Shown here: positions 3,001 through 45,210 of the stretch, one piece after another
Layout: each line of letters opens with the position of its first letter
Numbering within the stretch: position 1 is the first letter of the stretch
From: Zygnema cylindricum
Taxonomy: Eukaryota > Streptophyta > Zygnematophyceae > Zygnematales > Zygnemataceae
Length of the DNA stretch: 51,000 nucleotides
Reading direction: 5' to 3'
NCBI GenBank assembly: GCA_037447655.1
Contig: JBBHKE010001973.1
Span: 64,001 to 115,000 of the forward strand
The notes under the pieces: generated by a model
Databases searched by the model: none
Told to the model about the DNA's origin: nothing
What the model saw: only the letters and a program-made list of their open reading frames with translations
Program-made: the position numbers and the translations under genes

Positions 3001-3054
3001 TTCCAAATTGATATTTTGTAAGGAGAAGTGTGGATTGAAGCAAAAGATAGACTA
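1..3054 (+). pseudogene. Copia A copy 1 pol remnant (integrase, RT, RNase H)
   Basis: Decayed copia pol. Around 264-400 the zinc-binding part of integrase is visible (WHKRLGH, then a C-x2-C pair). At 643-891 the integrase core follows with RSDNGG and QNSVAERLNRT, giving the second Asp and the Glu of the DDE triad. RT lies at about 1500-2180, with the polymerase motif YVDD intact at about 2060. RNase H lies at about 2540-2670 and 2690-2990 (WSDASYGD and AIAIA blocks). Stops at 308, 889, 1630, 2177 and 2670, plus several frame changes, make it non-functional. Neighbouring copies of the same family at 33-36 kb and 42-45 kb help to align it. I treat all of it as one dead gene. Confidence 0.85.
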
Positions 3055-3068
3055 AAAAATAATTGGAG

Positions 3069-3220
3069 TGTTGAAAAAAACAGGGTATTTTATATTCAAT
3101 CTTTTTTGGTCTATGATTATTCTATAGTTCTCATAATTGTCGTATTCAGTGAGAACAAGCAGGCAGCCATGGCTATCTCAAAAAGATTAGAAAATAGGCA
3201 AAAGACAAAGCCCCTACTGT
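3069..3220 (+). repeat. Truncated 3' LTR of copia A copy 1
   Basis: It begins with the family A LTR start (TGTTGAAAAA) and contains the same gcagccatggct palindrome as the LTRs at 30579, 36062, 39886 and 45211. Similarity to the copy 2 LTR stops at about 3215-3220, where sequence matching 4686 onward takes over. The break is therefore a truncation by the adjoining gypsy-derived DNA. Confidence 0.8.
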
Positions 3221-3485
3221 CGAGCGTGCCGGAAACATCAGAGGAGGGCCCACTGCCCGGGTAATTAGCATTGGAGTCCTGCAAACACCCTTCCCCAGAA
3301 TGCGAATTCTCCCCACAAACATGCTTGTGGTCAATGCTGCCCGCCTTTTTCCTGTGAGCAAGCATGCAAAGGTGGGGATGAGTGCTTGGGGAGGGAGAAA
3401 AATATCCCCTCCCCGCCTCTCCTTTCCCCTCCTGGCCGCGGGAAAAGAGGGAATCCTTAGAGTTGGAGCCGAGTCCTTGATTTAG
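3221..3485 (-). repeat. Partial gypsy LTR tail abutting a full LTR
   Basis: This stretch matches 4686-4945 and 6288-6576 almost base for base, including the gcatgcaaaggtgggga segment. It ends within about 4 nt of the start of the next LTR at 3486. Because the matching stretch at 4686 lies between the LTR core and the polypurine tract, I read it as the U3-side end of another LTR of the same gypsy family. It is placed head-to-tail against the complete LTR. Confidence 0.6.
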
Positions 3486-4946
3486 TGACTATCTGTTGGA
3501 AGCATAACAGAAATCCTCTCAAAATCCACTATTCTGGTACAAAAGATTCTGGTAATTGACCCCAGAAGAAACCCGACCAGAGCCCCAAAAAGGACTACCA
3601 AAGAGAAAACCTAGATGCTTCCACTCAAAAAAATGAAAGGATAGAAATATAAAAATGTTGTCTCAAAATTAACAATATCACCTTGCCCTTAGAAAATAGA
3701 GATATAAAGTTAAAATGTGGAATAATAGCAAGCGAGCTCAACCTACCCCCAAAACGTAACGTGGACAACCAAAAGGAGACGAAATCTCCCCCTGCAAACC
3801 CCGGAACAGCTAGGGCCTCCTTAACTCCTGGGTTTCGCGACCCGGAACCGGCAAGACCCTTCTTGGTTTCCAACAAACACTGGTCCCCAAACCGCCCAAA
3901 TCAAGAAAGACGGTGCCAACCACCCAAACGGACTACAATTTCCACAAAGGACGGATGCAAACTAAGATGGCAATAGGGTCACAATCACAAGCAAAACAAA
4001 AGTTCTCCACAAGAAAGTTTGCTGGAATTTCTAGGGTTTTTCTCAGAAGACAGTACTGAAACAGCAACCTGTCTCCTTCGACCCTAAGTGCCTTATACAA
4101 GCCAAGTTTGTCCTACTGATAGTACCAAAGTCAAAGCAATACTAGGAGCCAATCACCGGCCAGGAATTGGTATCCTCCGGACATAAGACAAAACAGGTTG
4201 TACTACACTCGGGGCAAAAAGTTAGGCGACTATCTCCAGCTAGATTAGAAGCCACGTGGTTTTCTATGACACAATCCTGAGCAACAAAGTTCTAAATTGA
4301 CGTGAAACGCCTAACTTTGACTCAGATTAATAAATGCTCTATTCGGCTAGTAGACCTGAACTTACGTCCTACTGATAGCCAACAGCAAAATCTACAAGAC
4401 TATCCCAAAAGTTACGTGGCGTTCCACAATGTAGCCCCTAATGGGACAGTTGGCAACTGGTCACATATAACAGGATGGGAATCTTTGGAACGCAGTAACT
4501 TTGTCGTCCGGCCTCTGTTAGGCGCGAAATAAAGTACGTTCCGTTCAGGTAGGAAGATAGAAGAATCTGGTTAGGCTGAGTGCGCTCCTTTCCCCGTACT
4601 TTAAGGACTGTACAGAGGAAAAAGGGCCTTGGAATCCTTGGTAAGATACAAGGGGTGCTTGTGAAGCACATGAGCTTGACATTTGTCGAGCGTGCCGGAA
4701 ACATCAGAGGAGGGCCCACTGCCCGGGTAATTGGCATTGGAGTCCTGCAAACACCCTTCCACGGAATGCGAATGCTCTCTACAAACATGCTTGTGTTCAA
4801 TGTTGCCCGCCTTGTTCCTGTGAGCAAGCATGCAAAGGTGGGGATGAGTGCTTGGGGAGGGAGAAAGATATCCTCTCCCCCCCTCTCCTTTCCCCTCCTG
4901 GACGGGGAAAGGGAGGGAATCCTTAGTGGTGGAGCCGGGTCCTCCA
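3486..4946 (-). repeat. Gypsy 3' LTR (left LTR)
   Basis: Bases 3486-4681 match 22034-23226 closely. The plus-strand boundaries TG at 3486 and CA at 4946 fit an LTR of about 1461 bp abutting the oligopyrimidine (minus-strand polypurine) tract at 4947-4961. A shorter reading ends at CA at 4681, where the match to the right LTR stops. I prefer the longer one because a polypurine tract must adjoin the 3' LTR. The TATA-like block (4093-4098) and the self-complementary block (4049-4076) described for the 5' LTR are also present here. Confidence 0.75.
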
Positions 4947-4961
4947 TCCCCCCCCCTCTTA
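4947..4961 (-). other. Polypurine tract, unit 1
   Basis: On the minus strand this reads as taag followed by a run of G. It directly precedes the LTR start TGGAGG. Priming of plus-strand DNA at such a tract is standard for LTR elements. The second copy is at 6577-6591. Confidence 0.6.
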
Positions 4962-4972
4962 GTCAACTGTGA

Positions 4973-5798
4973 CTAAGACTGTTGAATAATTACCCCCGCA
5001 ATTCGCAGTTCCCGCAGAACAAGAGAGTAGAGGGTTTTGGACGAGGGTCCCAAGAGGAGGGGAGACAAGATTGATGCCAACACTCGATCACAAACTGGTA
5101 CAGAATTCTGGGAGGGTGATGAGAGGCATTCGCAGGACCACAAAGGGGGAAGAGCAAAATAGGTAGGGTGGAAAGTAGGTTCGTCTTCCAATCCCCGGAG
5201 GTGACAAGGAGCCACATTGATCTGATTTTCTTTGATCCTCCGACCATCCTTCCCTTCAAGTGTCAAGACCCCTTTATTGGAGACTTCCACTACCTTCAAA
5301 ATCACCCTCCCCGCTGAAATGTCTAGAGTGTCCTTTTTCTATTGCATCAATACACGAAGTCCCCGGGTAGAAATCGTTGTTGTCGCGGGACAAAATTCCC
5401 GCTCCGGCGTTGCGAATACCAAAGTTGATCTCGGTGCTGAGCTGCTTGTAGATTCCCCATGGCCAGAGGCATTTCCTGCTGAAATACCTTGGCTCTGTCG
5501 GCAATCAATTTTTCGACCGTTCCTTTGCTGTCCATCTCCGGAAGGACCAGTGCTTGGGCCGAGGCAGCGCCGGGGAGGATCGGATGCCGTCCGAACAAAA
5601 TGAAATATGGACTGTGGGAGTGGAGGGATGCTTGCCGGCTGAATCAGTACCCCATGGCGATCTAAGGCACCCCTCTATCCCACTCTCATAGATCCTCTTC
5701 CACGGCATATTTACAAAGTGATCGCTTCAGTGTCTGCACGCAACTTTCGGCCAAACCGTCGGCTTGTGTGTGGTCTCAGCTGGTCAACCGGTGGTCGA
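4973..5798 (-). pseudogene. Duplicated fragment: integrase C-terminus and PHD finger, unit 1
   Basis: This is a truncated copy of the 6610-7436 region. At 5347-5798 it encodes the integrase C-terminal part (GRHPILPG, LQAAQHRDQLWYSQR, FLPGDFVY). At 4990-5305 it encodes the GPY/F-like tail (GRRIKENQINVAPCHL) and the PHD finger. About nine bases are missing inside the finger compared with unit 2, near 5085-5095, so its halves fall in two frames. The last Cys pair (FCGNC) is preserved here but degraded in unit 2. It has no upstream integrase and cannot be a functional gene. Confidence 0.75.
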
Positions 5799-6576
5799 AG
5801 GTTGTACTACACTCGCGGCAAAAAGTTAGGCGACTATCTCCGGCTAGATTAGAAGCCACGTGGTTTTCTATGACACAATTTTGAGCAACAAAGTTCTAAA
5901 TTGACGTGAAACGCCTAACTTTGACTCACATTAATATATGCTCTTTTCGGCTGGTGGACCTGAACTAACATCTTACTGATAGCCAACAGCAAAATCTACC
6001 AGACTATCCCAAAAGTTACGTGACGTTCCACAATGTAGCCCCCAATAGGACGGTTGGCAACTTGTCACATGTAACAGGATGGTAATCTTTTGAACGGAGT
6101 AACTTTGTCTTCCGACCTCCGTGAGGCGCAAAATAAAGTGCGTTGCGTTCAGTTAGGAAAATAGAAGAATCTGGTCAGGCTGAGTGTGCTCCTTTCCCCG
6201 TACTTTAAGGACCGTATAGAGGAAAAAGGGCCCGAGAATCCTTGGTAAGATAAAAGGGGTGCCTGTGAAGCACATGAGCTTGACAGCTGTCGAGCGTGCC
6301 GGAAACATTAGAGGAGGGCCCACTGCCCCGGGTAATTGGCATGAGAGTCTTGCAAACACCCTTACCTAGAATGCGAATGCTCCCCACAACTATGCATGTG
6401 CTCAATGATGCCCGCCTTGTTCTTGTGAGCTTGCATGCAAAGGTGGGGATGAGTGCTTAGGGAGGGCGAAAGATATCCCATTTCCCCCCCTCTCCTTTCC
6501 CCTCCTGGCAAGGGGGGAGGGGGGGTGGGGGGGGGGAAAGGGTGGGAATCCTTAGAGGTGGAGCCGGGTCCTTGAT

Positions 6577-6591
6577 TCCCCCCCCCTCTTA
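6577..6591 (-). other. Polypurine tract, unit 2
   Basis: The minus strand reads taagag followed by a G run. This copy is contiguous with the intact pol order, so it is probably the original tract of the element. The adjacent LTR end reads ccttga here instead of cctcca. Confidence 0.5.
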
Positions 6592-6619
6592 GTCAAGTGT
6601 GACTAAGACTGTTGAATAG

Positions 6620-6943
6620 TTACCCCCCTAATTCGTAGTTCCCGCAGAACCAAAGAGCAGAGGGTTTAGGACGAGGGTCCCAAGAGAAGGGGAGACAAGA
6701 TTGATGCCAACACTGGTCGCATCGATCACACACCAGTACAGAATTATGGGAGGGAGAGGAGAGGCATTCTGAGGAGCACGAAGGGGGATCAACAAAATAG
6801 GTAAGGTGGAAAGTAGGTTCGTCTTCCAATCCCCGGAGGTGACAAGGAGCCACATTGATCTGATTTTCTTTGATCCTCCGCCCATCCTTCCCTTTAAGTG
6901 TCAAGACCCCCTTATAGGAGACTTCCACTACCTTCAAAATCAC
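6620..6943 (-). pseudogene. Integrase tail with C-terminal PHD-type zinc finger
   Basis: About 107 residues. Residues 1-37 resemble the GPY/F-like end of gypsy integrases (GRRIKENQINVAPCHL). Residues 56-103 form a PHD-like pattern: C56, C60, then C72-D-R-C75, H80-Q-S-C83, and finally W98-F-C100-G-N. The last Cys is Tyr103 in this copy, but Cys is present in the duplicated copy at about 5020. The spacing C-x2-C, x4, H-x2-C, then W-x-C-x2-C is that of PHD fingers, which usually read histone H3 tails. In chromoviruses a chromodomain occupies this position, so I infer a role in choosing integration sites. A frameshift separates it from the integrase segment upstream, so it is not intact. A degenerate zinc ribbon is the alternative. 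Confidence 0.65.
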
Positions 6944-8193
6944 CCTCCCCGCTGAAATGTTCAGAGTGTCATGTTTTGTTGCATCCGATACACGAAATCC
7001 CCGGGTAGAAATCGCCGTTGCCGCGGGACAAAATTCTCGCTCTGGCGTTGCGAATACCAGAGTTGATCTCGATGCTGAGCTGCTTGTAAATTCCCCATGG
7101 CCAGAGGCATTTCCCAGTGAAATACCTTGGCTCTGTCGGCAATCAATTTTTCGACCGTTCCTTTGCTGTCCATCTCCGGAAGGACCACTGCTTGGGCCGA
7201 GGCAACCCCGGGGAGGATGGGATGCCGTCCGAACAAAATGAAATATGGATTGTAGGAGTGGAGGGATGCTTGCCGGCTGAATCGGTACCCCATGGCGATC
7301 TAAGGCACCTTTCTATCCCACTCTCCTAGATCCTCTTCCACGGCATATTTACGAAGTGACCGTTTCACTGTCTACACGCACCTTTCAGCCAAACCGTCGG
7401 CTTGTGGGTGGTCTCGGCTGGTCAACCGGTGGTCGATGAGACACAATTCCAACAAGTTGGAGAATTCTCCCGCAAACTCGGAGCCCTGGTCGGTCATGAA
7501 TTCGGCTGGGGCCCCAAATTGGGAAAGCACTCTCAGCAAGAATGCGTCCGCAATAGCCTTGGACTCCTTCCGGGTTAAGACCACCAATTCGATCCATTTG
7601 GAAAAATGCTCTATCATTACCAACACAAAGCGGTTCCCTCGTCTGCTAGTGGGGAGAGGACCCAGCAGATTCAGAGACCATCGATAAAACATCCCCTTGA
7701 TGGGAAGGGAATGAAGCTGAGCACCTCCCTTTTTGTCGAAAGCTGCTTTGACTCGGTCACAAGAGGAACACGTCTGCACAATCCGGTTGACTTGGGTCCG
7801 CAACCTGTGCCACCAGTACGATCCTGCGACCAAGGAGGTGGTCCGTTTCTGCCCAAAATGGCCACACTGCTGGTGAAGGTTAAAAATAAGAGTCTCCCTG
7901 TCGGCCGGGGGAGGAACCACTTTCCTCGTCCCATCTGCCCACTTCCGGATTAAGATGCCCCTTTCCCACTCGTATGCCGCCATTCTTGTTTGCACCCGAG
8001 ATAACTGCACTCCTGACAAATGCGGAAGAGGGAAACCTTGTTGGACAGATTGGAGTGCATCGGGATCGTTCCAAATATCTTTCCGTCCGGCCCCTATTGG
8101 CGCCTGCCCCTCCACGTCTGCAGAGAAAGTAGACATTTCCCCCCCAGATTGAGGAAGCCAAATAAAGGCGGATGACGCTCGAATGAGTCCCAA
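6944..8193 (-). pseudogene. Ty3/gypsy integrase
   Basis: Integrase joins retroelement cDNA to host DNA. At about 7790-7890 an HHCC zinc-binding domain is visible (HQQCGHFG ... CSSCDR). The catalytic core follows with LLGPLPTS, FVLVMIEHFSKW, FMTDQGSEF (second Asp) and HPQADGLAE (Glu). The first catalytic position is Asn (WSLNLLGP) where Asp is expected. The C-terminal segment 6961-7293 (FGRHPILPG, RFLPGDFVY) is separated from the core by stops near 7295-7372. The frame differs from that of RT/RNase H (8094-9836), so a frameshift lies near 8100-8190. Family assignment is secure and function is lost. Confidence 0.85.
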
Positions 8194-8732
8194 ACTGATT
8201 TCAGGATCCTCATCATGGAGGCCCCAGTGGAATCTCTAGTGGAAGGGTCAGGATTTCTGCTAAGTCCGTCGGCATTCCCATGAATCTCTCCGGCCCGGTG
8301 GATTATGTTGAAGTCATATTCTTGCAGTATTAACACCCACCTGGCGAGCTTGCCAGTAAACTTGCTGTTCTCCATAATCCACTTAAGAGGCTGGTGATCC
8401 GTGATCAGAGTGAAATGGACTTCGTATAGGTATGGTTTGAAATGTTAAATGGCCCATACCGCCGCCAGTAATTCCCCGTGATAGCTGTTGTAATTCCCCT
8501 CCGCTCAGTTATTACTCCTACTGGCGTAAGCTACTATATATTCGGCACCAGCATCATCCAGTTGGGCTAAAACAGCTCCCAATCCAAACCAGCTCTAATC
8601 AATGTAAAAGAGGAAGGGTCTTTGGTGATCATACATTTGGAGCACTGGGTGTTGCTTCAAGGAATCCTTGAGGAACTGGAAGGCAATCGGTTGCTCCTCC
8701 GTCCACCGCCACTCCTTGTCTTTCCGCAGCAA
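8194..8732 (-). pseudogene. Gypsy RNase H domain
   Basis: Directly follows RT on the minus strand, in the RT frame. It shows the RT-connected RNase H pattern: FYID near 8610, GLGAVLAQ, EGNYNSYHGELLA, ITDHQPLKW near 8390, and DFNIIHRAGEIHGNADGLSR near 8270-8330. Such a domain degrades the RNA strand during reverse transcription. Stop codons occur near 8445, 8508, 8605 and 8733. The end overlaps the integrase frame through a frameshift around 8100-8190. It is recognisable but broken. Confidence 0.75.
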
Positions 8733-9836
8733 CTAGTTCAGAGGCTGAGCGTGGCTACTAAATTCAGGGATGAATCTCCGATAATAGTTAGCCAGGACTA
8801 AAAATGTGCAGAGTGCACAGACGTCTTGAGGAGGGGGTAGGGCATCAAGGGCTGCAACTTTGACTATATGGGGACCCATTGTTTTGGGTGTAACTTCGCG
8901 TCCCAGGTAAATAATTTTTTGCACCCCAAAAATTCCCTTACTCGGGTGACATTTTAAGCCCGCTGCTTCGAGAGCTCGCACTAGAATCTGTATGTGCTCC
9001 AGGTGTTCGTCGAAAGTCTTCGAGAAGATAATAACATCGTAAATATAGCACCGTGCACAGTCAATCCCCAGGAGTGCCTCGTCCATGGCACGTTGGAATT
9101 TGGCTGGCGCATTCTTCAGCCCGAATGGCATGTAGAGCCATTCATACAACCTGGACCCTGCCCAAAAAGCTGTCCTTTCCCGGTGCTTTGGCTCCATCTC
9201 GATCTAGTGGAACCCATTCTTCATGTCTAGTGTAGAGTAAATGGTGGCCCCGGCCAGGGAGTCAAAAATCTCTTCCGGGGTAGGCATTGGGTATCGGTTC
9301 GGTACAGTGGCCGTGTTAAGCATCCGGTAATTTCCACACATCCGAAAGTCTACCGTTTTCCCAGATGAGTCTTTCTTGGGTGGGAGAACGGTTGGAGAAA
9401 CAAATCCATGGAGTCCGGTACTTTCTTGAACCAATCCTGCTCCCACCAGAGTTTGTACCTTTGCCGTGATGAACTCTTTTTCCTTAAAACTGAGAGGGTA
9501 CTGCTTCTACCAAACAGTAGACGTCTCGTCTATTAAGTCAATTCGAAAAGAGGTTCCTTTGTAGATGCCTACGTCGGTATCTGACCAAGAGAACACTTGT
9601 TTGTTCTTCTCCAACAGGTCCGAGAGCTGGACCTTTTGATGAGGGTTCAACTGCTCCCCTAAGGTCCTATCCATCTTTCCCGGTTCCACCGCTGCCCAGG
9701 CCTCTGGGGGTCTACCCCAGCGGGAGATATCGAATTCCATCGCGACCTGCGGGTCTACCTCAACTCCTCCCGTTAGAATGCTGCTGCTAACAACTTCCGC
9801 TAAGTTGTCTCTCTCCGAGCCTTCGCTCCCCCCCAC
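8733..9836 (-). pseudogene. Ty3/gypsy reverse transcriptase
   Basis: Three in-frame pieces (9507-9836, 9204-9446, 8733-9197) separated by stops. Motifs in order are VSPTVLPPKKD, the STLDMKNGFH catalytic Asp block near 9210, YMPFGLKNAPAKFQRAMD, then YIYDVIIF near 9030, then YLGREVTP and NYYRRFIPEFS. The polymerase box normally reads YxDD. Here the first of the two Asp residues is Tyr, so even an unbroken protein would lack polymerase activity. It is in the same frame as the methyltransferase upstream, with four or more stops in the 9840-10079 linker. The gypsy assignment rests on these motifs and on the order RT, RNase H, integrase. Confidence 0.88.
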
Positions 9837-10076
9837 TGAGGAATTCCTTAGTTTCGGTAAAATGCTGGGATTGGAAAATTTTGATGATTAAAACTATTTT
9901 CTTCTTGCCTCCCTCCCCCCCTCAAGCTACAAGTGGGCCTGCACCGCTAACAACTTTGGAGCTTGAAAGTAACGATCCCTCTATTGCGGAGACTGAAGGC
10001 TAGAGAAGGCTAGAGAATGTTTTATCACCCATGTTATTGCATTTAGATCCATGCTTTGTCCGAGTAGGCTGCACCT

Positions 10077-11165
10077 CTAGAGGTCTGATATACCTGGTGC
10101 CGCCGTACTGGCTGGTTGGAATCCCATGGCTTGTTCTTGTTCTTCCACCGTTGGCGTTGTCCACACTCCACGTTTGCTGTCAAATATCATTCCTGCCGCT
10201 CCCTTTCGATACGCATGGCTATTGGGGAAGGAAACCAATATTGGCAGTGCTCGCCGAGGTGCTCCTGGTTGGTTGCACTGGAAGAACGGGGGAAGATCAG
10301 CCTTAATTACGGGAGTAGCCATCCGCCCTGTCCCTAAAATTTGTCGCAGGGTAATCTGGGGATCTGTTTTGTGGTTCTGTAAGAGCTTGGTCAGGACTGA
10401 CAAAGATATCAAATTGGTCCAGTACGCCCGAACTTTGTGAGCCCTTGATCCCAGTTGAGCCGCATCGAAAAAAAGTGGAGCTCTTTGAATCTGTTTGACT
10501 TTATTCCAGCTATTTGCGACTTGTTTTCTCTTATCATCTCCCGGGTGGACATTCTCCAAAACGTACCCCACTGGTTGGTTTTGGGATTGCTGCAGCCAGG
10601 AAAGTAATTTGATCATCTGGAAGAAGGTTCGACTTCTGCTATCCTGATGTCCCTCGCCTTTCCCGGCTAGAGAGTATCCTTGACATGGCCATCCTGCAAT
10701 CACCAAATCTACCCGTTCCAGCATAGCGAGATGTGGCTTAAGGATATTGTCTATATTTTGCGGGACACATCGGTGCGATCTGCAGATGGCGGATACCGGA
10801 AGTTGCTGGGGATATAATTGGTGGAGTTGTTGGAGTCGGTATTCACTGACAGCCCGAGCATCCGGTGAAATTTCCACGGCCACATATGACTCCACTTTAT
10901 GCCCAACCTTAAAGACAGCTTCGAGGTCCGTGCTAATTCCAGAAAATAATGATAATATCCGGAGTCCTGAATCTGGGATAGATAATGACACCACTTGTCG
11001 ATTGAATTTTTGATTTTTGGGCGGAACTTCCGAAGATTCCAACCAAGGTTCTTTTTCCTTCACAAAAACAGCTGTCAAGGATTTGTCCACTTCCCGCCGA
11101 AGGTTTGTTATTTGTAATAGTCTGTTCTGGTATCCTTCTTCCCACCGCTCGGAAATAGGGAATTG
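10077..11165 (-). CDS. Retroelement-encoded C5 DNA methyltransferase domain (DNMT3/DRM-like)
   Basis: Transfers a methyl group from S-adenosylmethionine to cytosine C5. Counted from the GTG at 11090, motif I is LSLFSGIS (46-53), motif IV is GWPCQGYS with the catalytic Cys136, motif VI is LENV (178-181), motif VIII is SRAHKVRAYWTNL (215-227), and motif X begins TPTVEEQEQAMGF (312-324). The A-H-x-x-R-A-Y-W form of motif VIII and the spacing after motif I recall DNMT3/DRM enzymes more than DNMT1. No ADD, PWWP, BAH or UBA domain is present. The reading frame is open back to the TAG at 11166-11168, which separates it from protease in the same frame. A TAG at 10077-10079 interrupts motif X, and similarity continues past it to about 10010 (LLGQS). 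All other key residues are intact, and RT follows in frame. It may be expressed by readthrough or simply be decaying. Confidence 0.85.
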   Translation of the reverse strand, partial: QFPISERWEEGYQNRLLQITNLRREVDKSLTAVFVKEKEPWLESSEVPPKNQKFNRQVVSLSIPDSGLRILSLFSGISTDLEAVFKVGHKVESYVAVEISPDARAVSEYRLQQLHQLYPQQLPVSAICRSHRCVPQNIDNILKPHLAMLERVDLVIAGWPCQGYSLAGKGEGHQDSRSRTFFQMIKLLSWLQQSQNQPVGYVLENVHPGDDKRKQVANSWNKVKQIQRAPLFFDAAQLGSRAHKVRAYWTNLISLSVLTKLLQNHKTDPQITLRQILGTGRMATPVIKADLPPFFQCNQPGAPRRALPILVSFPNSHAYRKGAAGMIFDSKRGVWTTPTVEEQEQAMGFQPASTAAPGISDL

Positions 11166-12325
11166 CTATATTATGTCTGTGATATCGGTGGCGCTGGCGA
11201 GCAGTTCCGTGGGTGTGTGAGTAGCATAGACGCGATAACATCCTGCGACGGGAGCATTATCTTTCCCCCTATTCCATAGATCCAGAGGAACCACCACCTT
11301 GACTCCTTCGGGATCCTCAGGATCCCGAACAGTAAACTGCTCCTTCCACACACTTAATCCCATATTCACCCTTGTCCAGGTGGTCATTCCCAATAAAATC
11401 TCAAACTGCTTACCTTCCACCACCAGGAAGGGAAGCTGAATTCGGACCTTTTGACCTGCGTCGTCGGCGAACTCTATTAACATAGCTTTGATTATTCCGT
11501 GTACTGGTTGGCTCCCACTGCTAACAGTACTTAGGCAGATGTCACTGGGGAAGATTTCCGGTCGGAGTTCTTCAGGCATTTGCTGCTGAGCCGATGTGGT
11601 GATTAGATTTGGGAGTGCTCCTGTATCGACAACTGCGTCTTGATACCCGCCGTATCCGTTGAGTTTGAAATTCCCCGTCCGGTTGAGAATTAGCGCCACA
11701 GATAACGTTTTGTAGTCCCTATCCATCATAGGGGTCTTTGGGTCTGCTGACCAAAAAACGGATCTGGCCTGATCGGCCCGGTGTTTCTCCCCTCCTGAAT
11801 GGATTTCCTCTCCGAGGGCCTGGATGAGAACTTCCTCCGGCAAGTTATGGGAAGAGGCCAGTGTTTTCACGTGAGTAAGAGCGTAGGACATTAGATGCCT
11901 TACTAACATCACCGCTGGTTTGGAGGAAGGAGGTTGAATTTTTGGCGACGAACTGGAGGAATCTGTTGGTTCCCCTGGTTGATTCTTCTCCCCCCCCCCT
12001 GCTTCCTCAAATTCTGGGTCGAATTCTGGCACGGGCGGTGTTTCTGGCTTGTTATCCTCCGGGCGTTCCGCCAAATATTTTTTGAACCAGTCTTGGTTGT
12101 CACGCGTCTCTTCCTCCTTTGCTCGTTCCTCCATGTTCCTTGTTTTGGTTATCCTGTAATTTTCGAATCTCGGAGGTAGTTTTGTTGCGGCTCGTGGAGG
12201 TGGGTTTGTAGATTTGATTCCGAAACCTATGTCGTCGTTCAGGATGACGGCCCTGGGGGTGATGGACAGAGGTCCAGTAGCGTTCCTGTTAAGGTCGCGT
12301 GGAGCGAGCTTTTGCCTGTCCCTTC
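11166..12325 (-). pseudogene. Gypsy Gag C-terminal region and aspartic protease
   Basis: One open frame of about 386 codons belongs to the gypsy element; the first 20 codons of the longer open frame lie in the copia B LTR and are spurious. It holds an acidic, Pro/Ser-rich linker (12000-12120), then a retropepsin-like fold: AVVDTGALPNLIT with the catalytic DTG at 11619-11627, and a later hydrophobic strand with EILLGMTTW near 11390. Retropepsins cleave the polyprotein and act as dimers. The frame ends at a TAG (11166-11168) followed in frame by the methyltransferase. The upstream half of the same frame resumes at 18096 beyond the copia B insertion, so the gene is split. Confidence 0.75.
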
Positions 12326-13165
12326 TGTTGTTTTGGAAAGCTTTAGTCCTCTCTATGCCTCGAGTGTGAGGGAGAGAGAGTTTCACGAATTAGCATATGT
12401 TTGGTTGTAAGTTCGTTTCATTACACACCAGAATTGATGTTCCACTAGATCGGTAGGGAGTACACCTTTGTATACACTCCCGAGACACAAGTCACTACAA
12501 GAAAGAGAACACTCCAGAATATCCGATTGTTTGTGCATATATACACTTGAGGACAAAATGGCACATGGAGATTTGTCTACGGTGCCGAATGTGATATGTA
12601 CGCGGCTGAGGGAGACCGCCGACAAATATTGGTCCGTGTGAGCCACATACACGACAAATGACGTGGCATATAGAATCCTACTCCTTTGTAAATATCTAGT
12701 TAAGTAGATTTTTGTCTTTGTGTGGTTAGTTGATTAGTAAAGGAATCTTTTTGTATGACGTACCTTGTTCGGTTCGAGCCGCAGGTATTTATTGTACAGC
12801 TGGTATGCCTCAGTACGTTCAGCAGCATAGGCTTCGGTGTATATTAGTAGGACTTAGATAACTTTGAAGGTATGAACATTTTGTAGTCAAAAACTGTACA
12901 GCCTGTTTTTGGCATTTTCATCTGTGGATATCTCACAGATCTGTTAGCAGAATTACTTGTAAGTTTGTGTGTATGTTCATCTTGATATTATCTACACTAT
13001 GATAGATTTTCAGAGCTATTGTGTCTTTGGTTTGGGTTTTATCAACTGTTTAAGTTGCTGTTTTTCAGACCGGTTTTTGTGAAAGTTTCTTGTTTGGTTT
13101 GGTTCCGAGATGACTACACCGGCATCCTCATCGTCTTCGGTTCCGGCTGTTGTCTCAGAACAACA
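12326..13165 (+). repeat. Copia B 5' LTR
   Basis: Starts TGTTGTTTTGG and ends CAACA, 840 bp, matching 17251-18090. The last 56 bp contain the gag start codon at 13110, so the first 18 codons of gag are LTR-encoded and are repeated, without function, at the 3' LTR. Confidence 0.95.
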
Positions 13166-13901
13166 GGTCACGGGCCCGCCTTCACGAATTCCAGTTTTTG
13201 ATGGGAGAGAATATCTGTATTGGGCAGATCTTGTAAGGTCGTATTTTGTACAAGTAAAGCTTTTTGATGTTGTTAATGGATTTATGGTAGAAACTGATGT
13301 AACCTATGATCAAAAGAATGAGCAGGCTCTTCATTTGATAAAATTAATGATATCTAAGGAGCTGCATATGACATAAATTCAGGCTTCTAAAGCATCAGAG
13401 ATATGGGATGCTTTGAAAAAGACATATTCTAGGGCTAATGCACAACATGAGATTATAACTGCTGGACAGATCTGGGAATATAAGTATACACGCGGAAGAA
13501 TGGCAGAATATTGCAATAAATTCAGACTTCTAGTTGCTGAAAATGCATGTTCAGGTGGTTCATTTCCTGAGTATCACCAATCAATGATTTTTGTGAGGGG
13601 GCTTCCTAGTGAGTATAAAGGTGCCTATGATGAACTGAAAAAATTGGATAAGACATAGTGGAATCTAGCTACAGCTATAGAGTATGTGCTAGAAGAAGAA
13701 GCGAAACAGCTGGCATTTAATTCTGGAAAGCCAGCTGTAGCTTACAATGCTCAGTTTTAGAGAGATAATAGATTTCAAGGAAATCAGTCCTTTTAGCAAT
13801 ATGAACGGTGTGTCTATTGCTATAATAATGGTCATTTGTACAAGTTTTGTCCTTTGTATATAAAAGCGTGTGAAACAGGTTCTTATCGCAAAGGATAGAA
13901 G
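13110..13901 (+). pseudogene. Copia B gag
   Basis: Nucleocapsid/capsid gene of the copia element. It starts inside the 5' LTR with an Ala/Ser-rich leader, passes through the primer-binding site (coding QQVTGPPSR) and continues into a UBN2/retrotran_gag-type region (FDGREYLYWADLV, IWEYKYTRGRMAEYCNKF, MIFVRGLPSEYK). A CCHC zinc knuckle, C-V-Y-C-x4-H-x4-C, lies near 13809-13852. Stops at 13374, 13656, 13758 and 13794 interrupt one frame, while the codons between them read through cleanly. A small number of mutations therefore inactivated an otherwise well-preserved gene. Confidence 0.85.
13166..13180 (+). promoter_or_regulatory. Copia B primer-binding site (half-tRNA-iMet type, diverged)
   Basis: Immediately after the LTR the sequence GGTCACGGGCCCGCC aligns with GGTTATGGGCCCACC, the complement of the initiator tRNA-Met anticodon arm, with three transitions. 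The families A and C in this window have the unmutated form at the same place. Confidence 0.55.
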
Positions 13902-14216
13902 GTGAGAGGAGCTCCATTTACACTGAAACCTCCGAGCAAAACCGCAGCTTTTTCAGCGGAGGAAGAGGAGCCGGTGAAGGAGATGGAGAAGGAGAAATCA
14001 GAGGTTGTTAGTTTTCCTAAAACTGATGACACCGAGTTCTTTGCTATGGCAAAGATGATGGAGGGAGAGAAAGATCTCGGGTGGATTATGGACTCCGGAA
14101 GTACTTCCCACATGTGTTGGAACAAATCGTATTTCAAGGATATGACACCTATCCCTACTCGTCAAATCTTTAATGCTTGTGGTGCCACGGTGGAAGCTAA
14201 TGCTAAGGGAGCATAG
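13902..14216 (+). pseudogene. Copia B aspartic protease
   Basis: Continues the gag frame. The catalytic motif appears as WIMDSGSTSHMC near 14083-14118, with the Asp-Ser-Gly triad intact. An acidic stretch (EEEEPVKEMEKEK) precedes it. The frame ends at a TAG at 14214-14216, and the integrase resumes in another frame at 14258. A short deletion or insertion in between probably broke the polyprotein. Confidence 0.8.
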
Positions 14217-14257
14217 ATCTGAATTGTGAGATAGATGGCAAAGCTGTAAAAAGAACT

Positions 14258-15385
14258 TTGCATGATGTGTTATATGTGCCTAAATTTAAGAAAAAATTGT
14301 TTTCTACCTCAGTTGCAAAAAGTAAAGGTTTTGATGTTCTTCAGAACAAAGGCAAAAAGATAGTAAGCAAAGATGGGAGAGTAGCCTTAGTGGGAACTAG
14401 AGGCCCAAACATGTTGTATCGGATGAACCTGGTTAATAAAGTTGATTTTGTGTACTCTAGTGTCATTTCTAAAAATGTTTTGTGGCATAAAAGGCTTGGG
14501 CATGTTCATAATGAGAGGCTTGAAAAGATGGTGAAGACTAATATGATAGATGGTGTCAAGCTTGGTGAAAAGGAATCCCATGTTTGTGATGGTTGTGCTC
14601 TAGGAAAGCTTCATAAGCTTCCCATACCACAGACTTTAGATTATCGAGCAAAGGATCTTCTCGGCCTTATCCACTCGGATGTATGGGGACAGGCCAAAGT
14701 TCCTTCCCTTGGTGGAAGGAAATACCTTGTTACATTCACTGATGACCACCCACCTTTCAGCCGAGTGTACTTTATGAAAGAGAAGAGCGAGGTCTTCACA
14801 CATTTCAAGCATTTCCGGATCTGGGCGGAGAAACTTCACGGAAAATCGATCCTTGCTTTGCGATCTGACAACGGCGGAGAGTATGTATCAAATGCCTTTG
14901 CTGAATACTTGAAAGAAAATGGAATTTCTCATGATTTTACTGTTCCTTACACTCCGGAACAGAATGGTGTGGCTGAAAGACTCAATAGGACCTTGACTGA
15001 ATGTGCTATGTCTATGATGATTGATAAAGGTGTAGATTCAAAATTTTGGGGAGAAGCTTTTCAGTGTGCTTCTTACATTAGAAATAGAATAAAAACTAGA
15101 TCTGTGAAGGATAAAACACCTTATGAAATGTGGACAGGAAGAAAGCCGAATGTTAGTCACTTTAGAGTATTTGGAAGTAAGTGTTTTATGTTGGATAACC
15201 TTCCAAATTGGAAATTAAGTCCAAAATCTATACTTGGGATATTTTTGGGCTATGATGATGAGTCCGTAGGATATAGAGTGTATAATCCTCAGAAAAATAC
15301 AATTCAGATTGCTAGGAATATTCAAATCAAAGAAGAAAGTCAATCTGTTGATGTTTTTAGCATGAATGAGGCGGAAAAGGCATAA
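14258..15385 (+). pseudogene. Copia B integrase
   Basis: 375 codons without interruption. It shows the GAG-pre-integrase zinc-binding region (LWHKRLGHVHNERL ... CDGCALGK), then the catalytic core with HSDVWGQ (first Asp), LRSDNGGEY (second Asp) and PEQNGVAERLNRT (Glu), so the DDE triad is complete. The C-terminal part includes the copia-typical YEMWTGRKPNVSHFRVFGSKCF. It ends at a TAA (15383-15385) with the RT frame directly in phase behind it, so one nonsense mutation separates integrase from RT. The domain itself appears intact. Confidence 0.9.
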
Positions 15386-15388
15386 AAA

Positions 15389-17203
15389 TTGCAGGAATAT
15401 GTCATCCTTGAGCAGATTCCTTTCAAGCAAACAACGGTTTCTTCATCTATATGTGAACTACCACATGTTTTGGGGCTGCCTGATCCACCTACTATTGCAA
15501 CTACTACAGGACCACCTCCTCCTCCTCCTCTTCCTCCAAGACTGCGTCAAGGACCAACAATTCTCGCTTCAGATTTTCCGGGGGGAAGAAGACAAAGCAG
15601 CCGGCTAAGACGTGACCGAGTGGATCATGCTTATGCTGCAATCACAGGGGAGCCTCTTACCATTCAAGAAGCTTTCTCCGTTCCGGAAAAAGATCTGTGG
15701 ATTGCTGCGGGGAATGACGAGATAAAGTCAATTATGAAGGCTCAAACTTGGGAGCTTGTGGAACTTCCACCGGATCGAAAAGCGATTGGTTGTAAGTGGG
15801 TATTCAAGTTAAAGCTGAATCCCGATAATACCATTGAGAGATATAAGGCCAGGCTTGTTGCTAAGGGGTATAGCCAGAAAGAGGGCATTGATTATGAAGA
15901 GACGTTCTCACCTGTAGTTCGTTTTCCTACTGTTAGGATTCTCTTATCTTTAGCAGCAATAGAGGATATGGAATTGCATCAAATGGATGTGAAGACAACT
16001 TTCTTGCATGGGGATTTGGAGGAAGTTATATATATGAAGCAACCAGAGGGATATGTAGAAAAAGGGAAAGAAAATCTGGTTTGTAAATTGTTGAAGTCCC
16101 TTTATGGTCTGAAGCAGGCTCCACGACAGTGGAACCTAAAACTGGATGAATTTTTGACAAATCTTGGCTTTACTAGAATCGGTTCAGATCATTCAGTTTA
16201 TGTAATGGAAGGGGAAGATGGAGTGATATATATTGCTGTTGATGTTGATGATTTGTTGTTGCTAAGCAAATCCATTAATGAAATTAACAAAATAAAAACA
16301 GCTCTAAATTCCTGGTTCGAAATGAAAGATTTAGGGGAGGCTAAGTATATTTTGGGAATTCAGGTAGAAAGGGATAGAAAACAAAGACTAATTTATTTGA
16401 CACAGAAAGAAGCCATTGGAAACATGCTTGAAAGGTTCGGCATGTCAGAGGCAAAGGGAAGTGCTACTCCCATGGAGTTCAGACAGAAAGTAGAAGGGAA
16501 AGAATTAGATGGTGGTGTTGTGATTGATGACTCTTTGGAGTCAGGGGAGGCAGATTTTATGTCCTCCATTCCCTACAGGCAGATAGTCGGAAGCCTCATA
16601 TACATCATGAACTGTACCCGTCCGGATATTGCAGCAGCTGTAGGAGCCTTAAGCCGAAGTTTGCAAAATCCAAAGAAGTCAGACTGGGAGGCGGCAAAGA
16701 GAGTTCTTCGATACCTTGCAGGAACTCGAAACCTCCGACTCTCTCTCGGTGGAGAGGAAGTAACAATTCAGACATGGAGCAATGCGAGCTATGGAGATAT
16801 GCCAAGCCGACGCTCTACTAGTGGATACATTGTGAAGATTGGAAGTGGGACATGCTGCTGGAGCAGCAAACTTCAGAAGGTGACAACTCAGTCTACTATG
16901 GAGGCTGAGTACATGGCGGCTAGCGCAGCCGTCAAAGAGCTACTTTGGGTAAAGTCTCTCCTTCAAGAGCTTTTGTTTATGCAATCAGGACCTCAAGTAG
17001 TGTGGTGTGACAATCAGGCTGCCATTGCTATTGCATCTAACCCTAGCCATCACTTTAAGAGCAAACACATTGATATCAAGCTACACTTTGTGAAAGAGAA
17101 GGTTATGGGAAGAGTTATGAAACTCCGTTATTTACCAGATGAGGAGATGGTTGCTGACATGATGACTAAACCCTTGCCTGCACCTAAATTAAAGTTTTGC
17201 TGA
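15389..17203 (+). pseudogene. Copia B reverse transcriptase and RNase H
   Basis: 604 codons, open throughout. A proline-rich linker (15500-15540) is followed by [68 protein letters not shown], then the polymerase box. That box reads DVDD at 16241-16252 where YVDD is expected; the Tyr has become Asp, which should impair catalysis. RNase H follows (TWSNASYGD, STMEAEYMA, CDNQAAIAIA, SKHIDIKLHF). The end is normal, and a polypurine tract and the 3' LTR follow. The gene ranks as the best-preserved pol in the window. Confidence 0.92.
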
Positions 17204-17250
17204 GAGGCATGTGGCTTAAGTGGCTAGAAGAGTCTAAAGCTTTAGGGGAG

Positions 17251-18090
17251 TGTTGTTTTGGAAAGCTTTAATCCTCTCTATGCCTCGAGTGTGAGGGAGA
17301 GAGAGTTTCACGAATTAGCATATGTTTGGTTGTAAGTTCGTTTCATTACACACCAGAATTGATGTTCCTCTAGATCGGTAGGGAGTACACCTTTGTATAC
17401 ACTCCCGAGACACAAGTCACTACAAGAAAGAGGACACTCCAGAATATCTGATTGTTTGTGCATATATACACTTGAGGACAAAATGGCACATGGAGATTTG
17501 TCTACGGTGCCGAATGTGATATGTACGCGGCTGAGGGAGACCGCCGACAAATATTGGTCCGTGTGAGCCACATACACGACAAATGACGTGGCATATAGAA
17601 TCCTACTCCTTTGTAAATATATAGTTAAGTAGATTTTTGTCTTTGTGTGGTTAGTTGATTAGTAAAGGAATCTTTTTGTATGACGTACCTTGTTCGGTTC
17701 AAGCCGCAGGTATTTATTGTACGGCTGGTATGCCTCCGTACGTTCAGCAGCATAGGCTTCGGTGTATATTAGTAGGACTTAGATAACTTTGAAGGTATGA
17801 ACATTTTGTAGTCAAAAACTGTACAGCCTGTTTTTGGCATTTTTATCTGTGGATATCTCACATATCTGTTAGCAGAATTACTTGTAATTTTGTTTGTATG
17901 TTCATCTTGATATTATCTACACTGTGATAGATTTTCAGAGATATTGTGTCTTTGGTTTGGGTTTTATCAACTGTTGAAGTTGTTGTTTTTCAGACCGGTT
18001 TTTGTGAAAGTTTCTTGCTTGGTTTGGTTCCGAGATGACTACACCGGCATCCTCATCGTCTTCGGTTCCGGCTGTTGTCTCAGAACAACA
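17251..18090 (+). repeat. Copia B 3' LTR
   Basis: 840 bp, preceded by the purine tract aggggag at 17244-17250 and followed by the target duplication ccttc. It matches the 5' LTR with 17 substitutions by my count. Confidence 0.95.
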
Positions 18091-18095: not shown

Positions 18096-20625
18096 GTTGC
18101 GCCAAGGTTGAGTTGCGGTGCGGCCTGCGATTGTCCCCCACACCGACATTCCAGGCTCGCGAAAGGAAGGTTCGTCCGTGATGTGCTTTCGGAGGTTCCA
18201 TGTCCCATCCCATCACCTCGTGATCGTCTTCGCCCGCTGTGGTTTCCTCTTCAAGCTCCGCCAGCTTTTGTAGTAGCTCGTGCTTTCTCCGATGGAGTTT
18301 CTGGGCGGCCGTCAGAGCGAGAGTCCTGGAGGGCGATCCTAATCGCAGTGCTGCCAATTCTGCAGCCATGGCTGCCATTTGCTAGCTCTGCTGTTGGATG
18401 ATAACCTACGGGGTTAATCGGGCTTGACCTGTTGGCTATCGTTCTGGTTTTTCCAGGGTGCGGCGTCCCAAAGGGTAAAGAAGCTGCAGCGGGAGAGGAT
18501 TCACGACCGTTTCACCTTCTCTGGTGAACAGTGCATATTCCATCATCTCTTTAGGAACTCCATTCTTTCGGAAGCACTGCCCTTCCTTGTGACCCATGAA
18601 GCTGCAAGCCTCTTACTTGGAGCCTTCGGTGGTATATTTGCCCCGGAATTCATTTGAGATTTGGGCGTCATCAAATGTTGGAAGTTTTATGTGTCGCAAT
18701 TGGGCTTGCGACATCTTTGCAGTCTCAGCTCGTGGCGTCAGCCGGTAATTGTCTTTGTTCAACAGTGTTTTATCGTCTGACCCTCCTCCTTGCTTCTTTT
18801 TTTGCTGCCTCCTTGTCCTTTCAGCTCTCTCCTTCTCCCATTCTTTCTGCTTTAGAGCTAATTCCGGTTTGAGCTTCCGAGGGCATCGCTTCCATCCATG
18901 ACCTGTTTGTTGACAGTTTAAATAGTTATAGAGGAAGACACGGTCATCGGCCCCCATGGCAGGTTCGGATCCGCTATCCACCCCCTGTTTCCCTTTGAGC
19001 TTCCGCAAGGCTAAGAGTTCGGCCGACTCTTCATGTTCGGGAGGCATTTCTTCGGCAAATGTTGCAAAGTTCCCTCGGGTTTTCCCGATTACCGCTTTTT
19101 CCTAGGCCTCGCGGTGGACAAAGTGATCATAAAGCTTCATGGCAGCGAGAGAGATTTCTTTGGCGGTGGGATTGACGTCCTGGATGGCCTGTCCAGCAAT
19201 CGAATTATCGAGGGCGGCCTGCCCCGTCGGTCCGAACAAATTTCGGACGGCGATGAAATATTTGGTTGCCATGGCCGGAAGATCAATGGTTGAGAGTTTG
19301 GTCTTTTGACAGAGGCTGGACAATCTGTTAAAAAGAGTCTGGGGTGTTTCACTCTTTTGGCAACGGAATTCCGTGAATTCCTTGATAGCAGATTCATTCC
19401 TCTCGGTGTAAAGGAGTCTCCAGGCATTCAAAAGAGTGGTACAGGGGGTTGGTTCTGCAACCATCCGAGTGGTTGCTTTGGCCTCCTGGATGGCCTGAAG
19501 CTGAGCGACTTAGGTTCGTCCCTGTGCCTGCAGTTTCATGTCCTCTGTGAAGAGGGCGGTGACAAGAGCGGCTGTAGCGGCAGCCAAGTCTGCTAACGCC
19601 CGCAAAACTGCCTCATTAAGGAGAGGGTCTGATATTTTGAGGTTGGGAGCCATCAGAAGAGGTTGTCGCTCCTTATAGTCTGCCAAAGCTCCACCAGCAA
19701 GATAGTTCACCATCATGGGGAAAAGTGTCGTCTCGAAGTCATCCGGAATGGCTTCGCCCCTGTATTTGTTGATTTCAGATTGGGTGAACGACTTCCACAA
19801 CAATTTGGAATCAAAGAAAGCGATTCCCGAGCTATCTCCTGTAAAGATCCTTGCGTCCCCCATTTCTTTTTCCTCCTCTACAAGGTTGGTGAACTGAGAA
19901 GAGGATGTTCCGGTTGGGCTGACAAACTGAACATGTGAAATTACCCCAGGATCCGCTTAGGTTGGCTCGGAGCCTCCTCCTTCTTCAGTAGATGGAGCTG
20001 CTTGACAAGAGATGGCACTCCCCCCCACTGAGGAAGCTCTGGTTACTGGTGGGATTGTGAGATGACCTCTATCTCCTTGGAGTTGGTCCTTGGGAAACGA
20101 GGAGCTTATCACCTTGGGAAAAGCGGCCCGAAGTCCGGCTCCTTTATACCCAGGAGAGGCCCTTTCCTCCCGGCGATCTGTTTCCACCGAGGGAATGGGG
20201 AGAATAGGTTTAATCACCGGTGGTCCTTGAGGGATTGGTAGAGAAGGGTAAGGAGATGAATGAGGACTACGAGGGAAAGGTGTTTGTCTCCGTGTACGCC
20301 TTTTGGAGGTTTCTGGTGGAGGAGTTCCTTCGTTGGAATCAAGGGAACGTCGGTGGGGAGGAAAGTAGGCAAGAACGTCGTACTTGTAGGGTAAGACATC
20401 TGGTCCTGGTGACCCACGGACTGCAGCGGCCGGAGAAACAGAAGGCGAAGGAGATGATGCCGAAGGAGGAGATGGAGGAGGAGTGGAAAGCCCAAGGGAG
20501 ATGTGTTGTCTCTGGTCGGGTTGTAATAATAACACGGTCTCCTTAGTTGAAGATCCAGCCACTGAGACAACAGTCAGGCGCTTAGCGGAGGCAACTACAA
20601 CATTATCCGGTAAATCCGCACCCAT
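18096..20625 (-). pseudogene. Gypsy Gag: capsid, zinc knuckle and coiled coil
   Basis: Four in-frame pieces separated by stops. The N-terminal piece (19957-20625) is rich in Pro, Ser and Arg. The pieces at 19510-19863 and 19102-19464 look like a retrotransposon capsid, with a helical LLNAWRLLYTERN ... ETPQTLFNRLSSLCQ pattern. At 18613-19047 there is a CCHC-like knuckle, NCQQTGHGWKRCP, whose first Cys is Tyr, followed by a highly basic stretch. The last piece, 18096-18378, is a predicted coiled coil (AAELAALRL, KHELLQKLAELEEE). All share the frame that continues as protease at 12325 across the copia B insertion. Gag would form the virus-like particle and bind RNA. Assignment of the capsid part is from general pattern only. 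Confidence 0.7.
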
Positions 20626-20629
20626 CCCC

Positions 20630-21862
20630 TGTTTGTTAGGTCCTGTTGTTTACCCCACTTCCCGCTGAAGAGGAGGCTCCGATCTAAGTTCCGAAGAAAT
20701 CCCGAGAGCTGGCATCTCCGTAGGGGTTGTCTGAACTGTAGGTGGTCTCTCAGCCGAGGGGCTTGTCTCTCTGGGAGGAGCTACCTGTCCCCTAAGGATC
20801 CCTCATGATATTCGTCTAGCCTCCCTTATGAGGAGCAATTCTTGTATGAGGGCCCTCTTCCTCTATTCTTCAAGAGCTTCCCAATCGATGGGGACGGGTC
20901 CAGCCCCCGCCGTAGCCTGACTCTGGGATCGCAAGATGTCAACCTGTTTTTGTGTACTGCTCACCACCCTTGAGAGATCCGCAATCCCCAAACTCGGTAC
21001 CTCGGGATCGGTGGGTCTAGAACGCCACAACCCTTCTGATGGTCAAAACACCGGAGCAGAAGGAGACTTTGAGCTCGAAGAGGTGGAATCGGAAGGGAAG
21101 AACGGTTCCGCTTTGGGTCGGGGAGCAAACCTTCCTTTGCGGTCCCGATGATCGAACGGTACCCCTTCTTTGGCTCGGGTAACCCTCGCTTGCTGGTCCT
21201 TTCCCCGGCTTGTGTCCGAGGGACCGCCCCGCCGGAGCTGGTCTGCTGGTTGCGGTGTCCTGAGATGGGGTGGGTTGATGGTAGGAAATTGATGGTCCTC
21301 CTAGTTGCTCCGATACGGAGGTTGGGGAGCACCTCTCGGAGGAACTGCGGAGTATCTCCAATACACCTCCCACTGGACGTACCACTCGGGCTTGATTTGA
21401 CCTGGCCACCCGCTCTACCAATTAATTCTTAACCTTCAACTCATGGAGATCATGAAGGGCTAAGATTTCTTTGCGACTTCGCCGTGTAGGATTGGTCAGG
21501 ATCTTAGGATCCATGTACATTTCTGCTATCGGTGCCTTAGATCGGGTATAGCGACCGATCTCGGGAAGGTGACAAGGGACCGCTTCCTTGTGGGCCAACC
21601 CCATTCTACGGCTTTTAGGAGATAAGGGCGGCCTCTCCGCCTTCTCAGCAGCCCTAGCTTTAACTGACTCGGACAACGTTGGGAAGTTCTCGGGGGAAAA
21701 GACAGGTGGAGGTGGAGGAGAGGGTCTCCCCTTTGTGGGCGTAGGGGGAGTGTCAACCGCAACCTCTGGGGGCATCTCTCCTTTAAAAAACCGCTCTACG
21801 TGTACAGGTGACCAAAAGGGAGGTGCTTCCTCGGGCATCTGTGACTCTTCCTCCTGGGCCAC
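20630..21862 (-). pseudogene. Gypsy upstream Gag-like region, function unknown
   Basis: Two overlapping open stretches, 21017-21421 and 21422-21862, lie between the leader and recognisable Gag. The second is 146 codons, Pro-rich with PPTPTKGRPSPPPPP, and ends in a charged helix. The first is Ser/Arg-rich. They share a frame with each other but not with the Gag pieces downstream, so either a frameshift has occurred or they are a separate leader protein. I recognise no domain. Base composition and strand fit the gypsy element, and nothing suggests a host gene here. Confidence 0.45.
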
Positions 21863-22008: not shown

Positions 22009-22035
22009 GAGATAGGTTGCTGTTTCAGTACTGTG
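22009..22035 (-). promoter_or_regulatory. Candidate self-priming primer-binding site of the gypsy element
   Basis: Directly adjoining the 3' end of the 5' LTR (minus strand), cagtactgaaacagcaacc is found where a tRNA primer-binding site should be. No TGG start is present. This block is complementary at 25 of 27 positions to 22598-22624 inside the LTR, at the predicted transcript start. In Tf1-type elements the mRNA 5' end folds back to such a site and primes first-strand DNA. Confidence 0.6.
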
Positions 22036-25748: not shown

Positions 25749-25776
25749 GTGTATGCCTTTTGTCATTGGTCCTGTC

Positions 25777-31688: not shown

Positions 31689-31689
31689 A

Positions 31690-31703
31690 GTTATGGGCCC
31701 ACC
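31690..31703 (+). promoter_or_regulatory. Copia A copy 2 primer-binding site
   Basis: GTTATGGGCCCACC one base after the LTR is complementary to 14 nt of the plant initiator tRNA-Met anticodon arm. The ATG inside it (31693) opens the gag frame M-G-P-P-S-R. Confidence 0.8.
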
Positions 31704-36049: not shown

Positions 36050-36061
36050 AAATAAGGGGAG

Positions 36062-40831: not shown

Positions 40832-40836
40832 AGTTA

Positions 40837-43067: not shown

Positions 43068-43214
43068 AGTCAAGTGTTTAGTTTAAACACATAAAAATCT
43101 GATTGGAAGTTAGATGCTAGAGGAAAGCCGGGATACTTACTTGGGTATGATGAGAACATAAAAGGGTGTAGAGTTTATGATCTCGGTAGAGAAGACATAA
43201 TTATAGTAAAACAC

Positions 43215-45197: not shown

Positions 45198-45210
45198 AAA
45201 ATATGGGGAG

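Follow-up and report, generated by a model that had tools for sequence, protein, structure and literature searches.

The cytosine-C5 methyltransferase (MTase) domain encoded in a 51,000-nucleotide stretch of Zygnema cylindricum DNA (contig JBBHKE010001973.1, positions 64,001–115,000; hereafter the window) is part of the Pol of a Ty3/gypsy retrotransposon. Profile comparisons support its assignment to the DNMT3 class. Across the copies analysed the order of the element, read from sequence, is gag-PR-(stop)-MTase-RT-RNase H-IN-PHD, where PR is the protease, RT the reverse transcriptase, IN the integrase and PHD a PHD finger; the stop is a feature of three of its four subfamilies (A–C).

Results

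The element in the window

The initial annotation had read MTase motifs I, IV, VI and VIII between a DTG protease and an RT, in one frame and on one strand, and this description proved accurate (Table 1). The four motifs are LFSGIST, GWPCQGYS with the catalytic cysteine, ENV and SRAHKVRAYW, for which we take I, IV, VI and VIII to be the conventional numbers; the translated region matched a C5 methyltransferase profile, and PR and RT flank it in its own frame. The frame, from 11165 to 10080 on the minus strand, runs for 362 codons without a stop, and none of 20,000 base shuffles of the 1086 nt remained open. Of the element's domains, the MTase comes immediately behind the stop that divides it from PR. 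Motif X had also been claimed; an X-like stretch does exist, but it lies past the stop codon that closes this frame and so outside the domain as annotated. The equivalent frame in another copy, L002, stays open further (453 aa). A single-sequence structure model of the domain was unusable (pLDDT 34).

Table 1. Features of the retrotransposon in the window (window positions).
Feature	Position	Strand	Evidence or remark
5′ LTR-like repeat A1 (TGTCAAGC...GTCA)	22034..23226	−	92% identical to 3′ repeat; K2P 0.0735
R-like segment AGGTTGCTGTTTCAGTACTGT	22599..22619	−	21-nt exact complement of 22014–22034
Putative primer-binding site at A1 end	22014..22034	−	Complementary to R-like segment
gag region, several ORFs	18616..20649	−	ORF list
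Nested copia element	12326..18090 (about)	+	LTR K2P 0.0205; separates gag from PR
Aspartic protease ORF	11169..12389	−	DTG 11619–11627; Asp_protease_2 E 0.0079, below cut-off
Conserved in-frame stop, TAG here, then CAATTC	11166..11168	−	Putative readthrough signal
DNMT3-class C5 cytosine methyltransferase domain (by profile)	10080..11165	−	Pfam DNA_methylase (PF00145) 3.9e-11, above curated cut-off
Catalytic Cys codon, motif IV (WPCQG)	10683..10685	−	Invariant alignment column, 14/14
Motif-X-like stretch RCSLLGQSMDLNAI	10020..10076	−	Beyond stop codon 10077–10079
Reverse transcriptase region with stops	8736..9887	−	RVT_1 3e-14 on 8736–9203
DDE integrase, H2C2 + rve	7375..8235	−	Pfam 3.3e-15, 4e-10; frame differs from that of RT
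PHD finger, C-terminal to integrase	6641..6766	−	Pfam PHD 4.7e-6
Tandem duplication of 3′ end	4195..7436	−	Units 7436–5799 and 5798–4195; partial A copy 5798–6286
3′ LTR-like repeat A2	3486..4681	−	Pairs with A1
b2, copy of the stretch preceding A2, beyond A2 (split direct repeat)	3217..3482	−

The Pol domains follow the PR-RT-RNase H-IN order of Ty3/gypsy elements, with PR below its Pfam cut-off, and the integrase is of the DDE type (rve) in place of the tyrosine recombinase of DIRS elements. This particular copy is decayed: the RT region has several stops and reads YIYD (9036–9047) where L061 reads YIDD, IN and PHD lie in other frames, and a stop precedes the motif-X-like stretch. No Pfam match over cut-off was obtained in the gag region of the window, where a zinc-knuckle-like sequence within 18616–19101, YLNCQQTGHGWKRC, has lost its first cysteine (the counterpart in L065 is CLNCNQPGHGWKRC); in the gag of subfamily D the zf-CCHC match is likewise below its cut-off. 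The copia element between gag and PR is, by the divergence of the two LTR pairs, the later insertion.

Placement inside paired LTRs, as annotated, holds to the extent that two LTR-like repeats flank the coding region, both running from TG to CA, but a simple pair does not account for the 3′ side, whose layout is more intricate and is described below. LTRs related to A1 (about 73%) occur in L064 and L065. Elsewhere in the window, related copia elements occupy 30579–37171, 39886–46159 and 1–3215, the first two with LTR pairs and the third ending where b2 of the gypsy element starts. A further LTR-type repeat pair (23226–27681, 91% identical) adjoins the gypsy 5′ end, and its LTR seems to have been interrupted by the gypsy insertion.

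Copies and subfamilies in the genome

A search of the source genome (352,776,454 bases in 2689 contigs) with the MTase gave at least 113 scored matches among 1875 first-look candidates, 59–100% identical and including the window copy. The PF00145 profile gave at least 123 scored matches of 782 and brought out a more distant group, subfamily D, so that the MTase is found in four subfamilies, A–D. Domain order was read in 59 distinct loci (L001–L060, with L042 dropped as a second cut of L003): PR-MT-RT in 44, MT-RT in 10, PR-MT in four and no retroelement MTase in one; in all, 48 of the 59 have a protease ahead of the MTase. The single exception is L037, which looks like a host-gene exon; its stretch at 1498–1800 resembles a plant chromomethylase (CMT) and so points to a streptophyte host. 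Dirigent and Radial_spoke_3 domains gave no match in the genome, but nor did their controls, and introns interfere with such searches.

MTase and RT share one uninterrupted frame in L036, L045, L052 and L054. In L063, of subfamily D, a single frame of 2395 aa runs from zinc knuckle through protease, MTase, RT, RNase H and IN to PHD, the zinc knuckle and protease matches both being below cut-off and the PHD that closes Pol matching at 1.5e-9 (Pfam). A 50-aa piece of the subfamily D PHD, compared with solved structures, matched PHD-finger proteins (best 5.2e-16). Two subfamily B copies, L061 and L062, have one frame from RT through IN that ends in a PHD match below cut-off.

Starting instead from RT, at least 51 of the first 80 of 150 matches (50 plus one on C961) have one of the listed MTases no more than 3.5 kb upstream and 29 have none among the matches listed, the comparison being with all 113 listed MTase places and part of the 123 from PF00145. 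The frame of 5743 aa on C961 was rejected as a giant ORF: it is mostly a stretch of N, and the end of the MTase precedes RT there. At C2229:88378–94085 two MTase copies lie 4.6 kb apart on one strand.

Class, ancestry and selection

Against solved structures, the profile of the MTase alignment matched DNMT3A best (7.7e-20), followed by DRM2 (1.6e-8), HaeIII (4.3e-8), HhaI (1.3e-7) and DNMT2 (2.4e-6); neither DNMT1 nor CMT appears by name among the 55 structure sequences listed. The motifs stand in the linear order I-IV-VI-VIII-X with the catalytic cysteine, as in DNMT3, and without the permutation of the methyltransferase domain that defines DRM. Of the DNMT3/DRM origin suggested at the outset, the DNMT3 half is thus supported, whilst the unpermuted motif order and the weaker profile score rule out DRM; the DRM2 match covers only profile positions 65–194, at the end of the DRM2 chain.

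In an unrooted tree the MTases of the retroelements stood apart, with a support of 100, from the phage, plasmid and mammalian sequences included. Unrooted and built without plant DNMT3 sequences, the tree is neutral between host and phage ancestry. Capture from a phage-like or giant-virus-like enzyme rather than from a host DNMT3 is possible, if improbable: the nearest non-retroelement protein tried was that of Psychrobacillus phage Perkons (L098, 889–1791), at 92 bits by BLASTP compared with 70 for mammalian DNMT3C and 64 for DNMT3A, and phage MTases scored level with or above mammalian DNMT3, but DNMT3 is clearly best among the solved structures and no such phage enzyme is named in those matches. 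Homologues were not found in the genome contigs searched; in viral contigs, the single MTase protein found none and the MTase alignment found one weak match, L104 (28%, 4e-9).

All 14 aligned sequences, those of subfamily D among them, retain the catalytic cysteine and ENV (or ENI). Nearly all sequences read outside subfamily D have Pro-Cys in motif IV; in subfamily D this motif reads Glu-Cys-Gln in place of Pro-Cys-Gln in all five copies read (L035, L045, L046, L055 and L059), a replacement that may alter activity. Median dN/dS for the MTase was 0.10 between A and B, 0.22 between A and A2 and 0.395 within A, and for RT 0.04, 0.19 and 0.393 respectively, after 8 (MTase) and 23 (RT) of 58 loci proved too short and with dS saturated in 134 of 312 A–B pairs for the MTase and in 8 of 189 for RT; A–D pairs are beyond dating. 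The A–B median, as a measure taken from sequence, shows the MTase to be under purifying selection, weaker between A and B than that on RT, and the values near 0.39 within A are presumably raised by decay after insertion.

MTase and RT have diverged together. Across the 22 loci with both, MTase distance tracks RT distance (Mantel r 0.82, p 0.0001); for each domain the mean distance from A grows through B, C and D in that order. The RT tree, of 135 positions, is poorly resolved, with C and D falling among B at support of 73 or less and L030 apart. One acquisition before the split of A to D would be the simplest account of these data.

The stop codon at the PR|MTase joint

Most loci have a single codon between PR and MTase, which share a frame. 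In 49 distinct copies this codon is TAG (44), TAA (4) or TTG (1), hence a stop in 48 of 49, in subfamilies A, B and C alike; L063, the subfamily D copy followed along its whole length, is one open frame. Junction rows are missing for 10 of the 60 loci (six of subfamily D, L019, L024, L040 and L037). Such conservation rules out ordinary decay as the source of the TAG in the window, and it goes beyond close kinship because the residues preceding the stop vary between subfamilies, although near-identical copies such as L016 and L017 mean that the 49 do not all count as independent events. CAA follows the junction codon in 45 of 49 and CAATTC in 42. Tobacco mosaic virus has a leaky stop in the context UAG-CAR-YYA, and the UAG-CAA-UUC of the junction resembles it. 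From this context and its conservation, the stop is probably leaky, a putative signal for programmed readthrough.

R-like segment, primer-binding site and repeat layout

Within A1, a TATA-like sequence TTGTATAAGG (22640–22649) lies 20–30 nt upstream of the R-like segment, which is predicted to be the 5′ end of the transcript. A primer-binding site (PBS) of the tRNA type starts with TGG; the site here does not, leaving tRNA priming unsupported. The longest complementarity between R and PBS is 26 nt, in L071. An alignment of the putative helix used 18 of 23 rows, leaving out five: L079 and L080, where no R segment could be found; L081 and L064, because of indels; and L083, identical in letters to L078. 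In it 94.7% of cells are paired, with both sides changed in 10 cells. None of 500 shuffles reached the paired percentage, the number of both-side cells or the covariation score, whilst the count of pairs altered on both sides was reached in two shuffles and the count of pair types in 13. With the partners slid by one to three columns, pairing fell to 32–49%. A structural hairpin is the rival reading of this pairing. We consider a built-in self-primer of the Tf1 type likely; copying of the primer into each new PBS, as self-priming predicts, would keep the two alike.

Eight copies were examined for an A-coding-B-A-B layout, and four of them (the window, C1374, C2415 and C2086) have b1-A2-b2 after the coding part, with 3.7 kb of other sequence between the two tail copies in C1374 and a shortened A2 in C2415. 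In C1177 a b1-A2 is cut short. No A2 was found within about 2.2 kb after Pol in C2519 and C966, or in its own orientation within about 8.4 kb after Pol in C544, where another element contributes an A-like repeat in reverse. C2415 and C2086 have the end of b ahead of A1 as well. At the b|A joints the sequence is CTCGACA-nn-TGTCAAGC or a slight variant of it, which is nearly palindromic. In L061, L064, L066 (C1374) and L062 (C544), b1 ends in ...GCTCGACA, with unrelated sequence standing where A2 would. The three copies compared (window, C1374 and C544), all with complex 3′ ends, showed no target-site duplication.

Discussion

We think it probable, on balance, that these elements are an old, high-copy Ty3/gypsy lineage that took a DNMT3-class MTase into its Pol and now combines readthrough, self-priming, self-methylation and targeting by a PHD finger. 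Ribosomes would read through the junction stop at a low rate, so that the MTase would be produced solely at the N-terminal end of Pol, the less abundant product, and the 5′ end of the transcript itself would prime reverse transcription. Tethered to RT, the MTase could then methylate the double-stranded cDNA or the fresh insertion, whilst the PHD finger might assist the integrase in choosing chromatin by the state of histone H3. Methylated on arrival and placed in suitable chromatin, a new copy would escape attack and negative selection and be tolerated. The strongest form of this proposal is that the lineage both writes and reads its own chromatin marks, with a readthrough MTase acting on cDNA, a PHD-guided integrase, self-priming and, as the split repeats would then mean, use by this DDE integrase of circle-derived or otherwise non-standard ends; taken as a whole it is doubtful.

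Methylation of the element's own cDNA or new insertion is, we infer, the most likely job of the MTase. The observed/expected ratio of CpG is 0.67–0.88 in these elements, compared with 0.55–0.56 in three copia elements of the window and 0.90 in a fourth, copia-like one. The ratio is not lower than in those three, so the elements bear no mutational trace of the extra CG methylation that self-methylation would bring. Among retroelement enzymes assayed in yeast, that of SymbioDIRS-Dnmt3 is described as carrying out de novo CG methylation, and the KnitGypsy-Dnmt3 domain as giving none, a result its authors called inconclusive (PMC5890265).

Two other roles for the MTase seem unlikely to us. As a companion of RT, which works on an RNA template, it might have the element RNA or a tRNA as its substrate, which could aid packaging or translation or help the RNA evade sensors, and an RNA substrate has been discussed for LINE-encoded DNMTs in the same study (PMC5890265); but the best profile is DNMT3 at 74 bits, whereas DNMT2 and tRNA-methyltransferase chains reach at most 30. 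No more credible is retention mainly for a non-catalytic purpose, such as nucleic-acid binding or shaping of the Pol precursor. The glutamate in motif IV of subfamily D and the faster change of the MTase than of RT would fit such a role, but the catalytic cysteine and ENV/ENI are retained throughout the alignment, in subfamily D too. There is little to recommend the view that the junction stop divides two cistrons with Pol made by internal initiation, given that in most loci PR and MTase share a frame and are a single codon apart, that none of 49 copies has an in-frame ATG within ten codons past the stop, and that the CAATTC following the stop in 42 of 49 recalls the leaky context of plant viruses. 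Finally, an unrelated or contaminating MTase gene beside a retrotransposon by chance can be dismissed: the further genomic copies, at least 113 matches strong, with the domain in the same place, the conserved PR-MT-RT order, the shared frame, the tree separation and the divergence of MTase in step with RT refute both a contaminant and an adjacent host gene, and bear out the original view that the domain belongs to the element.

A gypsy element with a DNMT3-class MTase in Pol is already on record, KnitGypsy-Dnmt3 of Klebsormidium nitens (de Mendoza et al., 2018; PMC5890265). By its published description the likeness is close: an LTR gypsy with the MTase inside Pol, purifying selection in both, and repeats called DIRS-like with the layout A-coding-B-A-B, which recurs in Zygnema. 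Set beside it by description, the Zygnema element stands out by at least 113 scored matches, and by four subfamilies, within a genome of 353 Mb, together with three features that we did not see described for KnitGypsy-Dnmt3, namely the stop in a CAA-UUC context, the PHD finger at the end of Pol (the main text does not contain the term ‘PHD’) and the self-complementary R and PBS. SymbioDIRS-Dnmt3 and SymbioLINE-Dnmt are likewise retroelements that carry cytosine MTases, the former also with the MTase in Pol and with split repeats, but SymbioDIRS is described as having a tyrosine recombinase and SymbioLINE is a LINE, whereas the Zygnema element has a DDE integrase (PMC5890265). A later article, citing the 2018 study, notes some DNMT3 members within LTR Copia and DIRS elements (PMC12344493).

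Other parallels are partial. In the self-primed LTR elements of the Tf1/Sushi type, which in plants include the Tcn1 chromoviruses, the PBS is reported to match the element's own transcript and not a tRNA (PMC6317226), as predicted for the Zygnema element; Tcn1-like elements are reported to carry a chromodomain (PMC2864245), in place of which the Zygnema element has a PHD finger and an MTase. Orchid Ty3/gypsy elements are also reported to have gained an epigenetic enzyme, but that is an m6A demethylase acting on RNA (PMC9289625) whereas the Zygnema enzyme is a methyltransferase. In the titles and opening lines of the abstracts listed, from mostly non-subscription literature, we found no second gypsy element with all of these features, and the rarity first ascribed to methyltransferase-carrying retroelements agrees with that literature.

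What was known, then, is an MTase-carrying gypsy in an alga, and what is added here is a conserved and probably leaky stop, a PHD finger and a likely self-primer. The element poses the question of why a transposon should carry the type of enzyme that usually silences transposons. Its four diverged subfamilies, which keep the cysteine but vary in stop or open frame and in PCQ or ECQ, provide a comparative test of whether methylation, reader and priming have evolved together. Since the Klebsormidium element has the split-repeat layout too, the capture may represent an old streptophyte lineage and not a one-off.
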